Origin: a virus
Reading direction: 5' to 3' (one strand)
Virus record (IMG/VR): IMGVR_UViG_3300049489_000593
Span: 1-39,178 of that record
DNA: 39,178 nucleotides
A model generated the notes under the pieces. That model was not told the origin of the DNA. It made no database searches and worked only from the letters and a program-made list of their open reading frames with translations. A program made the position numbers and the translations under genes. Shown piece by piece: positions 2,439-15,712 of this stretch (the first letter of the stretch is position 1; each line of letters begins with the position of its first letter).

Positions 2439-3836
2439 ATGCCCAGACTCGCGTTGCAATGCCGTGCAACAGTGCGACGTGTACGCGCGACGTCGAGTGT
2501 CTCGTTCGAGGAGTTGTACCTTGACGCCACAAACACCTGTGTGCCCATGACCTTCGAGACTGAGGACGTCGAGTGCATTCTCTACGAAGGGCATCGCGGA
2601 CCGCACCACACAAGTCAAGGCATGACCTTCTCAAACGACGCGCGATCTGACGTCCAATGCTCGTCTACGTTCTACGAGTCGCTGTCTGACTGGGTTCATG
2701 CCTGCGACCTCGCTGAGGGGCACCCTGGGGTCCACAGGTCACGTAGTAGCACTGACGTCTTCCGTTCCTACCAGTGGACCGAATGGGACGCACGGGTGTC
2801 ACCAGACCGTCCCGGGGCGCGGTCCGCTAGGCCAGATGGGCTAACTTCGTCCGAAAGACTAAGCTTTGACCTGCCAGAAACCGATAATGATCCTGTAAGC
2901 AACAACGACCCACGATCAGGAGAGACGATCATGATTCGCTGCACCCGCTGCAACACAAGCAAGTCAGCAGACGAGTTCCGCTGGATGCCGTCGCGTGGTT
3001 CCTACCACTCATGGTGCCGAGAGTGCGAACGCGCGCACCGTCGCTCTGCCCCGCGTCGTTCAACCTCACGTCGTGGACGTGGCCGCGCGTTTGGCATCGA
3101 GATCGAACTGACTGGTCCTGGACGCGACATCATCCTCGGTGCCCTTCGCGGCATCGGCATTGACGCCAACTCCACGGGGTACCGCGCGACGAACGGGTCG
3201 CGCTGGGAACTCAAGTCTGACTGCAGCGTGGGTGGTCACGGTCTCGAACTCGTCTCCCCCAAGTTGTACGGGACTGCGGGCATCGCGGAACTTGAGCGCG
3301 TCCTTGCCGCGATCAACTCCGTCGGTGCAACTGTCAATCGCACCTGCGGCGTCCACGTCCACATCGACTTCCGCAACCGCACAGTGCGTCAGATCAAGGA
3401 CGCCATCCGCCCCATCCTTCGCTCGCAGGACGCGTTCTACCAGATGGTCGCGCCGTCGCGTCGCACCAACCACTACTCCGCCCCCTGGACGCAGCGCTCC
3501 ATTGACCAGTTCGACAACACCAACTCTCTGCAGTACCTCCTCTCGACTGGGCCGCGCGGGTTCGTCAACCTCGGGTCCTACACGCGCCACGGCAGCATCG
3601 AGTTCCGCTCGCACGGTGCCTCGACCAACTTCACGAAGCTTTCCGCATGGGTCGCGCTGCTCTTCGCCGCAGTCGAGTACGGCGAGCGCCACGGCGAATC
3701 CGCGAACCTTGGTGCCACCGCGCAGGACGTCGTTGACACTCTGGGCCTCGCAGTCGAGCACAAGACCGCGCTCCTCCGCTTCGTCCGCGCCGCTGAGGCC
3801 CTCGAGGACGCTGAGTGCGCGACGGTGGGTGCGTGA
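2439..3836 (+). CDS. Long form: GHxGxH zinc-motif protein reading through into the amidoligase (465 aa)
   Basis: ATG 2439 follows a perfect AGGAGGT and start-associated motif copy A. The first ~110 residues hold two units with C...GHRGPH and C...GHPGVH (C46/H52/H56 and C89/H95/H99), a pattern of small zinc-binding actinophage proteins. The frame then has no stop and enters the amidoligase at residue 165. Between lies 2882-2908, a near copy of promoter P1 and its leader, plus a ribosome binding site and ATG at 2931. So either the upstream gene has lost its stop and makes a fusion, or two products are made from one frame. I cannot choose from sequence alone. A 35-codon ORF at 2417-2524 in another frame also has a CxxxxC-DVEC pattern. 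Confidence 0.5.
   Translation: MPRLALQCRATVRRVRATSSVSFEELYLDATNTCVPMTFETEDVECILYEGHRGPHHTSQGMTFSNDARSDVQCSSTFYESLSDWVHACDLAEGHPGVHRSRSSTDVFRSYQWTEWDARVSPDRPGARSARPDGLTSSERLSFDLPETDNDPVSNNDPRSGETIMIRCTRCNTSKSADEFRWMPSRGSYHSWCRECERAHRRSAPRRSTSRRGRGRAFGIEIELTGPGRDIILGALRGIGIDANSTGYRATNGSRWELKSDCSVGGHGLELVSPKLYGTAGIAELERVLAAINSVGATVNRTCGVHVHIDFRNRTVRQIKDAIRPILRSQDAFYQMVAPSRRTNHYSAPWTQRSIDQFDNTNSLQYLLSTGPRGFVNLGSYTRHGSIEFRSHGASTNFTKLSAWVALLFAAVEYGERHGESANLGATAQDVVDTLGLAVEHKTALLRFVRAAEALEDAECATVGA
2827..2908 (+). promoter_or_regulatory. Rightward promoter P2, copy of P1
   Basis: The 27 bp at 2882-2908 match 1782-1808 at 25 positions, including the GATAAT -10 (2883-2888) and the leader TGTAAGCAACAACGA. 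A CTAGGCCAGA decamer (2827-2836) lies upstream as at P1. There is no -35 at 17 bp; a TTGACC at 2866-2871 is only 11 bp from the -10. The duplication of box plus leader upstream of a second gene start argues for a real regulatory unit. Confidence 0.6.
2931..3836 (+). CDS. Amidoligase-family (COOH-NH2 ligase) enzyme with N-terminal zinc ribbon (301 aa)
   Basis: Start ATG 2931 has AGGAGA 7 nt upstream and follows promoter P2. Residues 4-32 form a zinc ribbon (C4, C7, C29, C32). Then come the hallmarks of the Amidoligase_2 family, a glutamine synthetase-like COOH-NH2 ligase fold: FGIEIE (54-59), WELKSD (92-97), GLELVSP (104-110), CGVHVHID (139-146) and IEFRSHG (223-229). Such enzymes use ATP to join a carboxylate to an amine and, in the family survey by Iyer and Aravind, often neighbour class I glutamine-amidotransferase-like enzymes, as here at 4151. 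The substrate (a peptide, cell-wall component or base) is unknown. The zinc ribbon suggests nucleic-acid or protein targeting. Confidence 0.8.
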   Translation: MIRCTRCNTSKSADEFRWMPSRGSYHSWCRECERAHRRSAPRRSTSRRGRGRAFGIEIELTGPGRDIILGALRGIGIDANSTGYRATNGSRWELKSDCSVGGHGLELVSPKLYGTAGIAELERVLAAINSVGATVNRTCGVHVHIDFRNRTVRQIKDAIRPILRSQDAFYQMVAPSRRTNHYSAPWTQRSIDQFDNTNSLQYLLSTGPRGFVNLGSYTRHGSIEFRSHGASTNFTKLSAWVALLFAAVEYGERHGESANLGATAQDVVDTLGLAVEHKTALLRFVRAAEALEDAECATVGA

Positions 3837-3838
3837 CC

Positions 3839-3913
3839 ATGGGGGTCAAGTGGACAGAGACCAAGCAGACCAAGACAGACTGGACCAAGTACGAAGGAGG
3901 TGGAACGTCATGA
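3839..3913 (+). CDS. Possible 24-residue leader peptide
   Basis: ATG 3839 to TGA 3913 encodes a Thr/Lys/Trp-rich 24-mer whose stop overlaps the ATG of the next gene (ATGA). It has no convincing ribosome binding site and its composition follows from three GACCAAG repeats (3859-3865, 3868-3874, 3883-3889), so it may be a chance ORF over a regulatory segment. Confidence 0.25.
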   Translation: MGVKWTETKQTKTDWTKYEGGGTS

Positions 3914-4149
3914 GAGTGATCGCGATCTTCCCTGATGGGGCAATGTACTCAGCGCCCACTCACGTGGCGTTGGAAGACTGCCTGATGGCAGACGTGTGGA
4001 ACCCGTCGGACCCCAAGGCGTTCCGTCGGGAGATGGCCAGGCGTGCAGACGTCTGGTCGGGTTGGTACCTCAACCCAGAGTCGCGCAGCGAAGCGTTCCT
4101 GCGTGGCATGGAGAAGGCGGGCATGCTCCGCCTGGAAGTGGAGAAGTGA
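3910..4149 (+). CDS. Small protein between amidoligase and amidotransferase (79 aa)
   Basis: ATG 3910 follows AAGGAGGT by 8 nt. The protein opens with a strand (RVIAIFPDGAMYS), then helices rich in Arg, Met and Trp (FRREMARRADVWSGWYL) and ends with an acidic tail. It ends two bases before the start of the amidotransferase-like gene, so the three genes are likely one unit. I do not recognise a family; it could be an accessory or substrate-handling subunit of the amidoligase system, which is only inferred from position. Confidence 0.65.
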   Translation: MRVIAIFPDGAMYSAPTHVALEDCLMADVWNPSDPKAFRREMARRADVWSGWYLNPESRSEAFLRGMEKAGMLRLEVEK

Positions 4150-4150
4150 C

Positions 4151-5041
4151 ATGAAGAAAGCCACCATCGCAGTCATGGGAGGCGGCGCGTCAGAGCGTCT
4201 CCGCTGCGCCGGTGTCGACGTCGTGAACCTTGGTTCGACGGACGGCAACGCGTGGAACCGAGTCGCAAAGGCAGACGTCCATGGACTCCTGCTCTTGGGC
4301 GGCGGCGACGTCAACCCACGGACATACGGCGAGACGCCGCATCGCTCCGTGTACGGAATCAACGACAAGAGAGACATCGCTGAGCTTCGCGCCTTGGAGG
4401 AGGCGCGCATCCGCAGCATTCCCGTCATGGGCATCTGCCGCGGCGCGCAGATCATGAACGTCCACGCCGGAGGGACGCTCGACCAGAACATCACGGACAA
4501 CCCAGAAGTGCACAAGAGGCACCGCGGCCACACCGCGCTGGTCCACGCCGTGAAGCGCTCCATCCTGTCTCGCGCCTGGCAGTCAGGCACGCAGTACGCA
4601 GAGCACATTCACCACCAGGCAGTGGGACGTCTCGCCGCGGGTTACCGCGTCATCGCGCGTGCTGAGGACGGCGTCATCGAGGCGTTCGAGGCGTTGCGCG
4701 GGTGGGAGTTGGGCGTCCAGTTCCACCCGGAGATGGACGAGAAGGCGAGCATGCAGCGTGTCTTCGAGGCGTTCGCCAGGGCGGCGGCGGACTACGCCGG
4801 CGTCGCAGAACCCGTGTCGCGTCCGTACGTCGACGAGTGGGTCATGCCCTCAGTCTTCAGAGCGCCCAAGCCCGTCAGTCGTCCTGCGACCGCCGTGCGC
4901 GTCCTGGGAGGCGCCTGGACCTGTGGGCAGCATGGCATCCGCTTCGACAGGCGCGACGACTGGGTCGATCACATGGCGTTCCTGCACGGGCAGGACGTCG
5001 AGGTGCTGGACCTAGAGACCACCACGGCGCGCACCAAGTGA
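4151..5041 (+). CDS. Class I glutamine amidotransferase-like / peptidase C26 enzyme (296 aa)
   Basis: Residues 1-215 are a class I GATase fold: the nucleophile elbow GICRGAQ with C96, the oxyanion-region GGGDVNP (50-56), and the distal GVQFHPE giving H192 and E194. Together Cys-His-Glu match gamma-glutamyl-GABA hydrolase (PuuD)-type peptidase C26 enzymes that cleave or transfer gamma-glutamyl amide bonds. A C-terminal extension carries CGQH ... WVDHMAFLH, a likely C2H2-type zinc knuckle not found in PuuD. Start ATG 4151 sits right behind 3910-4149. With the amidoligase it forms a make-and-break pair for an amide or isopeptide bond. The substrate is not evident. Confidence 0.82.
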   Translation: MKKATIAVMGGGASERLRCAGVDVVNLGSTDGNAWNRVAKADVHGLLLLGGGDVNPRTYGETPHRSVYGINDKRDIAELRALEEARIRSIPVMGICRGAQIMNVHAGGTLDQNITDNPEVHKRHRGHTALVHAVKRSILSRAWQSGTQYAEHIHHQAVGRLAAGYRVIARAEDGVIEAFEALRGWELGVQFHPEMDEKASMQRVFEAFARAAADYAGVAEPVSRPYVDEWVMPSVFRAPKPVSRPATAVRVLGGAWTCGQHGIRFDRRDDWVDHMAFLHGQDVEVLDLETTTARTK

Positions 5042-5091: not shown

Positions 5092-5529
5092 ATGCCAACC
5101 TACGACGCCGCGTTCCTCGAGACGCTGGACCCAGAGACCCGCGCCCTCGTGGCGCAGCAGCAGCGGGACGACACCGACCAGGTGGACACTGAGCGGTTTG
5201 CCGGCGAGCGCACCGTCTCGCTGGACGCGCTCAACCTCGACGAGACGGTCGGTGCAGTGCCTGACATCGCAGACGAGGTAGTGGACCGCCTGTCTGGCGA
5301 GTTCGCTACCCCTGCGCCGCAGGCACCCGCAGTCGGCGTCGTGCAGGACGTTCTCGCGTCGCTGCCCGAGCACCTCGCCGAGACGTACCGCCTGGTCTAC
5401 ATGGACCAGAAGACGCTGCGCGAGGCAGGCGACGAGCTTGGCATCGCGTTCACGTCGGTGCGGTCGCGACTGCAGACCATTTACGGACTCGTCGGGAAGG
5501 CGGTGATCGCAGCAGGTGAACTCGACTGA
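5092..5529 (+). CDS. Sigma-70 region 4-like HTH protein (145 aa)
   Basis: The first ~85 residues are acidic and probably disordered. The C-terminal 55 residues read like sigma region 4 or a LuxR/sigma HTH: SLPEHLAETYRLVYMDQKTL, then AGDELGIAFTSVRSRLQTIY, that is helix-turn-helix with an Arg-rich recognition helix. Such phage proteins act as transcription regulators or alternative sigma-like factors. ATG 5092 follows AAGGAGACCAAC. It is not a full sigma factor because no region 2 is visible. It is a candidate to read the repeated start-associated motif, which is inference. Confidence 0.7.
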   Translation: MPTYDAAFLETLDPETRALVAQQQRDDTDQVDTERFAGERTVSLDALNLDETVGAVPDIADEVVDRLSGEFATPAPQAPAVGVVQDVLASLPEHLAETYRLVYMDQKTLREAGDELGIAFTSVRSRLQTIYGLVGKAVIAAGELD

Positions 5530-14857: not shown

Positions 14858-15712
14858 ATGGAAACCAAGCTTCACACACACGGCGGGGTCGTGCTGCATC
14901 TGCCCGACCTCGTGAACGGGTTCGTCGACGTCGTTGACACCATCATGGCCAACGGCGACGACGTTGCACCCGACGGCAAGATGACCCGCGAACTACTGGC
15001 GATGACGCTCGTCATCCCTGGCGATGCGCCGATGCTGCCCTTCGGTACTGGGCGCAAGGTAAACCGCAGACTCGCAGCGGAAGACGCGCTGCAGGTCATC
15101 GGTGGCTTCTCGTCGCTGGAGCGGTTCGAGCGCATCAACCCGAACATGCGGAACTACACCAACCAAGGTGCGTTCCACGGTGGGTACGGCCCGCGCATCC
15201 GCCCGCAACTCGGCAACGTGCTGCGGCGCCTGACAGCCGACCCATCGTCGCGCCGCGCCGTCATCACGATCTGGGACCCGCTGCGTGACGGCAACATCGA
15301 GGGCATGAGCAACTACCCGTGCACGACCGAGTTGCAGTTCATGATCCGCGGCGAGAAGCTCGACCTGCACACGACGATGCGGGCTAACGACGTCTGGCAC
15401 GGTCTGACGTACGACGCGTTCGTCTTCAACCAGTTGCAGCGCACCGTCGCTCGCATGCTGATGGTCGACGTCGGCACGTACTACCACCATGCCACCTCGC
15501 TGCACGTCTACGAGAAGCAATGGGAACTCGTGCCCGACCTGCACATCTTGGCCGAGTACACCGACGCGCACTTCACGCCCAACGGACTGCCGTCAGACGC
15601 CGTCGCCCGCTACATCGCCGACAAGGACTACGACTCCCTGGCGCCGTACGCCTTCGACGAGGCAGTCGGTTGGTACGACTACTTCACCAACACCGCCGAG
15701 AGGGGCGAGTGA
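14858..15712 (+). CDS. Thymidylate synthase-fold enzyme, predicted dCMP hydroxymethylase or dCMP methylase (284 aa)
   Basis: ThyA-family core: the nucleophile is in SNYPCTTELQF (C155), then MRANDVWHGLTYDAF and YYHHATSLHVYEK, matching the R-x-x-D, substrate-base and H-x-Y regions. Spacing fits E. coli ThyA: Cys146-Asp169 is 23, C155-D178 is 23; Asp169-Asn177 is 8, D178-D186 is 8. So D186 stands where ThyA has Asn177, which reads the uracil base; T4 dCMP hydroxymethylase has Asp there (Asp179). dCMP specificity is therefore predicted, implying 5-hydroxymethyl- or 5-methylcytosine in the phage DNA. No glucosyltransferase is seen. A dUMP activity cannot be excluded. Confidence 0.85.
   Translation: METKLHTHGGVVLHLPDLVNGFVDVVDTIMANGDDVAPDGKMTRELLAMTLVIPGDAPMLPFGTGRKVNRRLAAEDALQVIGGFSSLERFERINPNMRNYTNQGAFHGGYGPRIRPQLGNVLRRLTADPSSRRAVITIWDPLRDGNIEGMSNYPCTTELQFMIRGEKLDLHTTMRANDVWHGLTYDAFVFNQLQRTVARMLMVDVGTYYHHATSLHVYEKQWELVPDLHILAEYTDAHFTPNGLPSDAVARYIADKDYDSLAPYAFDEAVGWYDYFTNTAERGE

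Follow-up and report, generated by a model that had tools for sequence, protein, structure and literature searches.

Organization of the locus

The window, by which we mean the whole stretch of DNA analysed (39,178 bases), is a virus contig with the gene content of a tailed phage, where replication genes share an arm with the module described here and the packaging and structural genes lie on the opposite strand. The module is made of a carboxylate-amine ligase, a small protein and an enzyme of the peptidase C26 type, and shows the following features:

2439-2930, plus strand: possible N-terminal extension, in frame with the ligase, that would add two CxxxxGHxGxH-type motifs (Shine-Dalgarno AGGAGGT; phrog_20343, 2.2e-4)
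2931-3836, plus strand: GS-fold carboxylate-amine ligase (PF12224), core at 3081-3662; putative metal/ATP ligands E57, E59, H142, H144, E224 and R226
2940-3026, plus strand: N-terminal four-Cys ribbon of the ligase (C4-x2-C7 ... C29-x2-C32), resembling ribbons of the phage endonuclease VII/HNH family (phrog_1035)
3910-4149, plus strand: small partner protein of 79 aa, predicted fold beta-beta-alpha-alpha-alpha-beta, pLDDT 94
4151-5041, plus strand: class I amidotransferase-fold/peptidase C26 enzyme, a PuuD-like putative gamma-glutamyl hydrolase (C96, H155, H192, E194)
4922-4987, plus strand: C-terminal C2H2-type zinc finger of the C26 enzyme (C258-x2-H261-x12-H274-x4-H279), CxxC in relatives

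The coordinates and identities that a first-pass annotation had given to the three genes were borne out by the profile searches it proposed, which placed both enzymes above the gathering cut-offs. The product of 2931-3836 matches PF12224 (Amidoligase_2) at 1.6e-24 (87.6 bits against a cut-off of 22), and that of 4151-5041 matches PF07722 (Peptidase_C26) at 2.4e-42 (145.6 bits against 20.5) as well as the class I amidotransferase family GATase, the PHROGs assignments agreeing with Pfam in both cases. The 79-aa protein has no family match in Pfam. No sigma-70-type promoter was found near the module, where shuffled sequences lead one to expect just 0.5, and no anti-phage defence model was matched with PADLOC.

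The carboxylate-amine ligase

Besides the PF12224 match, the putative ligands on which the amidoligase annotation hangs are present: the motifs ExE (57/59), HxH (142/144) and E224-x-R226 are invariant in an alignment of 11 related sequences, their correspondence to the GS ligands being drawn by motif alone. The predicted structure (pLDDT 85) is closest to YbdK (Z 13.6), glutamine synthetases (13.5), the gamma-glutamyl-methylamide synthetase GmaS (12.9) and plant glutamate-cysteine ligase (12.8), with a fit to the GS/GCL fold of Z up to 13.6 over 222 residues (rmsd 3.9) and a Foldseek E of 5e-6. The protein thus models as a ligase of the glutamine synthetase/gamma-glutamyl ligase type, with a putative capacity for ATP-dependent formation of amide bonds.

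The 5′ limit of the gene may lie further upstream. Because the reading frame stays open as far as 2436 and the ATG at 2439 is preceded by an excellent Shine-Dalgarno sequence (AGGAGGT), the ligase may comprise 465 aa and carry two further Cys/His motifs, although the ATG at 2931 also has a good one (AGGAGAG). Codon usage lends weak support to coding at 2439-2798 and none at 2799-2930.

The C26 enzyme

The catalytic triad C96, H192 and E194 is invariant in 10 sequences, and the HHQ motif is intact. Among curated families the best match is the gamma-Glu-GABA hydrolase PuuD (NF008471; 5.7e-16), whose 58.7 bits lie well under the cut-off of 266, and PuuD is also among the PDB matches. Gamma-glutamyl-CDP-amidate hydrolase and glutamine amidotransferases are likewise among the nearest curated families, below their cut-offs. 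A PuuD-like function may be considered, but the equivalog assignment is withheld because the score falls below the PuuD cut-off.

Zinc modules of the two enzymes

The ribbon and the C-terminal finger pointed out by the first-pass annotation prove to be real features, conserved in the clade of the window. In the ligase, the CxxC...CxxC arrangement is intact in the window, L002 and L004-L009 (the L numbers denote relatives), altered in L003, and lost with the N-terminus at the contig end of L010. This type of four-Cys ribbon is common among phage endonuclease VII/HNH proteins. The finger follows the pattern C-x2-[CH]-x3-FD-x3-D-x2-DH-x4-H and is intact in 9 of 10 C26 partners, the window included, and degenerate in L007. 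Eight relatives keep the exact C2H2 spacing C-x2-C-x12-H-x3-5-H with its hydrophobic core, whereas the window has a His in place of the second Cys (CxxH instead of CxxC), and a profile of the finger matches classical C2H2 chains of solved structures (2i13, 5.8e-5; 9sra, 0.0023). In the comparison of L005 with L006, dN reaches 0.57 in the linker and 0.38 in the catalytic domain but 0.07 in the finger, which is only 24 codons long; L008 and L010, which are closer to each other, show no such slowing of the finger relative to the remainder. Both modules would be expected to bind zinc.

Judged by their distribution, ribbon and finger are features of one clade, because the more distant C26-linked ligase of L015 has neither; outside the clade of the window there is a single ribbon, in L202. 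In ligases of other clades, HTH-like N-termini occupy the position of the ribbon, with weak Pfam matches (E 0.009-0.17). Ten of these N-termini, once aligned, match BurrH DNA-binding repeats at 5e-10, although no single stretch passes alone, and marine relatives have a ligase devoid of any N-terminal module.

A small protein that travels with the ligase

The model of the 79-aa protein is a confident, compact alpha/beta domain (pLDDT 94), for which comparison with the PDB gave a best Foldseek E of 0.24 and a best Z of 4.7, to the C-terminal domain of AcrIIA15. Acr-like proteins were set aside as relatives, their matches being too weak for use, with none above Z 4.7. Across 11 members of the family only G10 and R45 are invariant, and the C-terminus is variable, no conserved C-terminal Glu/Gln being found.

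A profile started from four members and then iterated located the small protein next to 53 of the 74 distinct PF12224 ligases collected from phages; for 2 of these 53 the neighbourhood spans the record ends, in Arthrobacter phages whose records are circularly permuted. The gene lies directly 3′ of the ligase or directly 3′ of an interposed class II amidotransferase, and 0.83 Mb of bacterial control loci searched with this profile contained no match below E 0.01. Among cultured phages, the window sequence as query retrieved ten Arthrobacter phage records and the L002 sequence none; beyond Arthrobacter, a Porphyromonas phage gives a clear match, Bacillus phage 035JT001 a weak one and Geobacillus phage GR1 a marginal one. 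LUZ24 gp20, UFV-P2 ORF26 and the small ORFs of phiEco32 were also considered, but their membership was unsupported by the profile. The family phrog_16392, which has no assigned function, does match the small protein (3.3e-35 for the best of the members), but it is a 44-position profile that covers only three of the eleven members.

By these counts the 79-aa protein is the most constant partner of phage PF12224 ligases, widespread and dedicated to them; it is most likely a subunit or adaptor of the ligase. The first-pass annotation had called it a small unknown protein; the absence of a Pfam family stands, but the impression of an incidental gene does not. No description of this widespread partner was found in the literature searched.

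An exchangeable third enzyme

Patterns back-translated for searching viral contigs revealed no close homologues of the window ligase, whose relatives were reached only through the C26 enzyme and later with the alignment. Nine relatives found through this enzyme (L002-L010) have the same enzyme pair, and the order ligase, small protein, C26 recurs in L002-L006, L009 and L015, as well as in L007 with a cyclotransferase inserted. Judged by gene order, the association exceeds chance, because this arrangement recurs in relatives, in agreement with the initial proposal that ligase and C26 enzyme form one unit.

Around the 74 ligases, which were gathered by similarity to the clade of the window and come in many cases from related phages, so that the counts are not independent events, we find a gamma-glutamyl cyclotransferase (GGCT) in 46 cases, a class II amidotransferase in 19 and a C26 enzyme in 11, at least one of them being present in 65. 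The other nine have none of the three, and three of these nine are cut by contig ends. Partner type tracks the ligase tree, with 12 changes versus a mean of 34.6 after shuffling. As far as gene neighbourhoods indicate, the third enzyme is exchangeable, and its place can be taken by a C26 enzyme, a class II amidotransferase or a GGCT.

Comparison with known systems

Cassettes of amidoligase and amidotransferase have been published for the phages phiEco32, LUZ24, RIO-1 and Marvin, with a cell-wall or secondary-metabolite reading. Those of phiEco32, LUZ24 and RIO-1 resemble the window in having a PF12224 amidoligase and an amidotransferase with replication genes close by. However, they combine a class II amidotransferase, a COOH-NH2 ligase, an ATP-grasp protein and a GGCT, and no small partner was detected in them by profile, whereas the window has a small partner, zinc modules, an amidotransferase of class I/C26 and no GGCT, and therefore falls outside the phiEco32/LUZ24 type. 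Neither an ATP-grasp protein nor a second COOH-NH2 ligase was seen in the gene list of the window. The cassettes of the Arthrobacter phages Laroye and Ottawa have a ligase, an amidotransferase and the same small protein family, but differ in their class II amidotransferase, their GGCT and an HTH-like ligase N-terminus in place of the ribbon. The small protein is unnamed in both records.

The putrescine pathway offers a parallel in PuuA and PuuD, a GS-fold gamma-glutamyl ligase and a C26 gamma-glutamyl hydrolase, the latter activity being putative in the window. The differences are a score far below the PuuD equivalog cut-off, the extra zinc finger and the absence of other Puu genes from those seen in the window. 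In the pairs BtrJ/BtrG and EgtA/EgtC the ligase adds a gamma-glutamyl group that is removed by a GGCT or a class II amidotransferase, but ligase families or substrates are others and zinc modules are missing.

A candidate gamma-glutamyl on/off module

Altogether, we tentatively read the locus, at somewhat less than even probability, as a phage module that puts gamma-glutamyl groups on and takes them off, with zinc modules recruiting both enzymes. The main argument comes from two sides. The enzymes GS, GmaS, PuuA, EgtA and GCL share the activation of glutamate at its gamma-carboxyl, and each of the three partner classes has members known to remove gamma-glutamyl groups, namely PuuD (C26), EgtC (class II amidotransferase) and BtrG (GGCT), known on/off pairs being PuuA/PuuD, EgtA/EgtC and BtrJ/BtrG. 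Ligase fold and partner classes therefore suggest on/off chemistry. The first-pass annotation had cited a prediction that such pairs make modified peptides or small molecules; the pair of ligase and C26 enzyme on which it built is there, but the three exchangeable partners point away from a general isopeptide maker.

In the proposed scheme, the ligase would use ATP to activate a carboxyl group, which to judge by its fold relatives is most likely the gamma-carboxyl of glutamate, and would then join it to an amine, presumably one on a nucleic-acid-linked substrate, which is favoured because unrelated nucleic-acid-binding-type domains appear repeatedly on the enzymes. The C26 enzyme would take the gamma-glutamyl group off by means of its Cys-His-Glu triad, the 79-aa protein would serve the ligase as its dedicated partner, most likely as one of its subunits or as an adaptor, and ribbon and finger would direct ligase and hydrolase to a common site, which is most likely nucleic acid itself or a substrate bound to it. 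The earlier suggestion of recruitment to nucleic acid or to a shared partner gains indirect support from the HTH-like domains that replace the ribbon in other clades. Nucleic acid is a plausible but unproven target of this recruitment: the Pfam HTH assignments are weak, the marine relatives do without the N-terminal module, and zinc fingers can also bind proteins. A more specific version, in which the zinc modules (HTH-like domains in sister clades) bring ligase and hydrolase to DNA or RNA, a gamma-glutamyl amide is written and erased on a modified base or a nucleic-acid-bound protein, and the small protein serves the ligase as a dedicated subunit with a fold lacking any clear relative among known ones, is in our estimate unlikely.

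Alternative explanations

C26 and class II enzymes can also be ammonia-feeding glutaminases, and lineage, not equivalence of function, may explain why there are three partner types, which argues against the on/off reading. In classical glutamine-dependent amidation, a rather unlikely alternative, the C26 enzyme would be a glutaminase giving ammonia to the ligase, which would amidate a carboxylate on a small molecule, a protein or a base. Glutaminase chemistry is common to both amidotransferase classes, the class II enzyme of Laroye resembles the glutaminase domain of GlmS more than it does EgtC, and amidation of 5-carboxymethylcytosine has been proposed for a cluster of phage ligases fused to a glutaminase domain (PMC12783734). 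However, gamma-glutamyl-amide hydrolases are among the closest curated relatives of the C26 enzyme. Moreover, 35 of the 74 ligases have a GGCT and neither amidotransferase, and ammonia supply is not, to our knowledge, a role of GGCT. A tagging system, with the GS-fold ligase conjugating the small protein as PafA does Pup and the C26 enzyme taking the tag off, would account for the presence of a cleaving enzyme and a small dedicated partner next to a ligase of the GS fold. It is nevertheless very improbable: whereas Pup-type proteins are disordered and conserve a C-terminal Glu/Gln, the small protein is predicted compact, with a variable C-terminus and its two invariant residues elsewhere, and the partner enzymes belong to gamma-glutamyl-cleaving classes.

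Distinctly unlikely, in our view, is hypermodification of DNA, with ligase and hydrolase acting on a carboxyl- or amine-bearing base of the phage and the zinc modules as guides, even though the ribbon and finger here, the HTH-like domains elsewhere and the replication genes on the arm of the module, found also beside the cassettes of LUZ24, phiEco32, Laroye and Ottawa, are in line with it. A precedent exists in CmoX/CmoY, where CmoY, a phage ATP-dependent amide ligase working on DNA, joins glycine to 5-carboxymethylcytosine (PMC12783734), but CmoY is an AMP-forming, asparagine-synthetase-like enzyme whereas the ligase of the window has the GS fold, and a CmoX-type route was discarded for lack of a C5 MTase in the window. 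The window phage does encode a TS-family protein nearest to CMP 5-hydroxymethylase, with homologues in three relatives, and a TET/JBP gene adjoins the module in L003. However, no single base-modifying gene tracks the module consistently: PF00145 is matched in 1 of 12 records and, out of 14 records, Tet_JBP passes the cut-off in 1 and a TS-like protein occurs in 4. The single Tet_JBP case led us to reject TET-made 5-carboxycytosine as a general carboxyl handle, and GGCT acts, as far as known, on small gamma-glutamyl amines. Quite improbable for the window is a modification of peptidoglycan or the cell surface that blocks superinfection, the interpretation given to the phiEco32/LUZ24/RIO-1 cassettes with their amidoligase, class II amidotransferase and GGCT in PMC5498523, PMC10580990 and PMC11945000, where it is computational and taken from Iyer 2009 and Hardies 2013. 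It leaves the nucleic-acid-binding-type modules on the enzymes unexplained, and no cell-wall gene adjoins the module in the window.

Significance

Amidoligase cassettes of phages have been on record since 2009, and the usual interpretation makes them modifiers of the cell wall; the module of the window is a variant of this known kind, with a C26 enzyme, zinc modules on both enzymes and a widespread small partner. The survey sharpens the question of what such cassettes do, by adding a small companion of the ligase, three exchangeable enzymes of putatively the same chemistry, and modules of nucleic-acid-binding type. Since the cultured phages Laroye and Ottawa hold most parts of the module, its substrate and role are directly testable.

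Reading frames and genes adjoining the module

Directly ahead of the ligase gene, the frame at window 2439-2930 is open and in phase with the ligase, and the stretch, which encodes two CxxxxGHxGxH motifs, is possibly an N-terminal extension of that enzyme. A 24-codon ORF (window 3839-3913) lies between the ligase gene and the small gene, the start of which is overlapped by the end of the ORF as ATGA; the codon score of this ORF is high, but the Shine-Dalgarno of the small gene sits inside it. The next gene downstream of the module occupies window 5092-5529; on visual inspection, the C-terminus of its product resembles a sigma-70 region 4 HTH.

Variant modules and DNA-modification-type genes in relatives

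Among the relatives carrying the same enzyme pair, the ligases of L008 and L009 are preceded at the N-terminus by in-frame repeats that look like left-handed beta-helix hexapeptides. In L007, a GGCT gene (4511-4915) is inserted, with the ligase on one side and the small gene on the other. DNA-modification-type genes are also found upstream of the module, namely a TET/JBP dioxygenase immediately adjoining it in L003 (2868-3773; PF12851, 1.4e-19) and a C5 cytosine DNA methyltransferase in L002 (1514-2752; PF00145, 6.4e-13).

A thymidylate-synthase-family protein

The window itself encodes a thymidylate-synthase-family protein at 14858-15712, whose closest solved relative is the CMP 5-hydroxymethylase MilA (7e-20) and in which Asp replaces the Asn of thymidylate synthase, the position being judged by motif. 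Further relatives (L141-L143) encode such a protein with the same features. The phage possibly produces a modified form of cytidylate.
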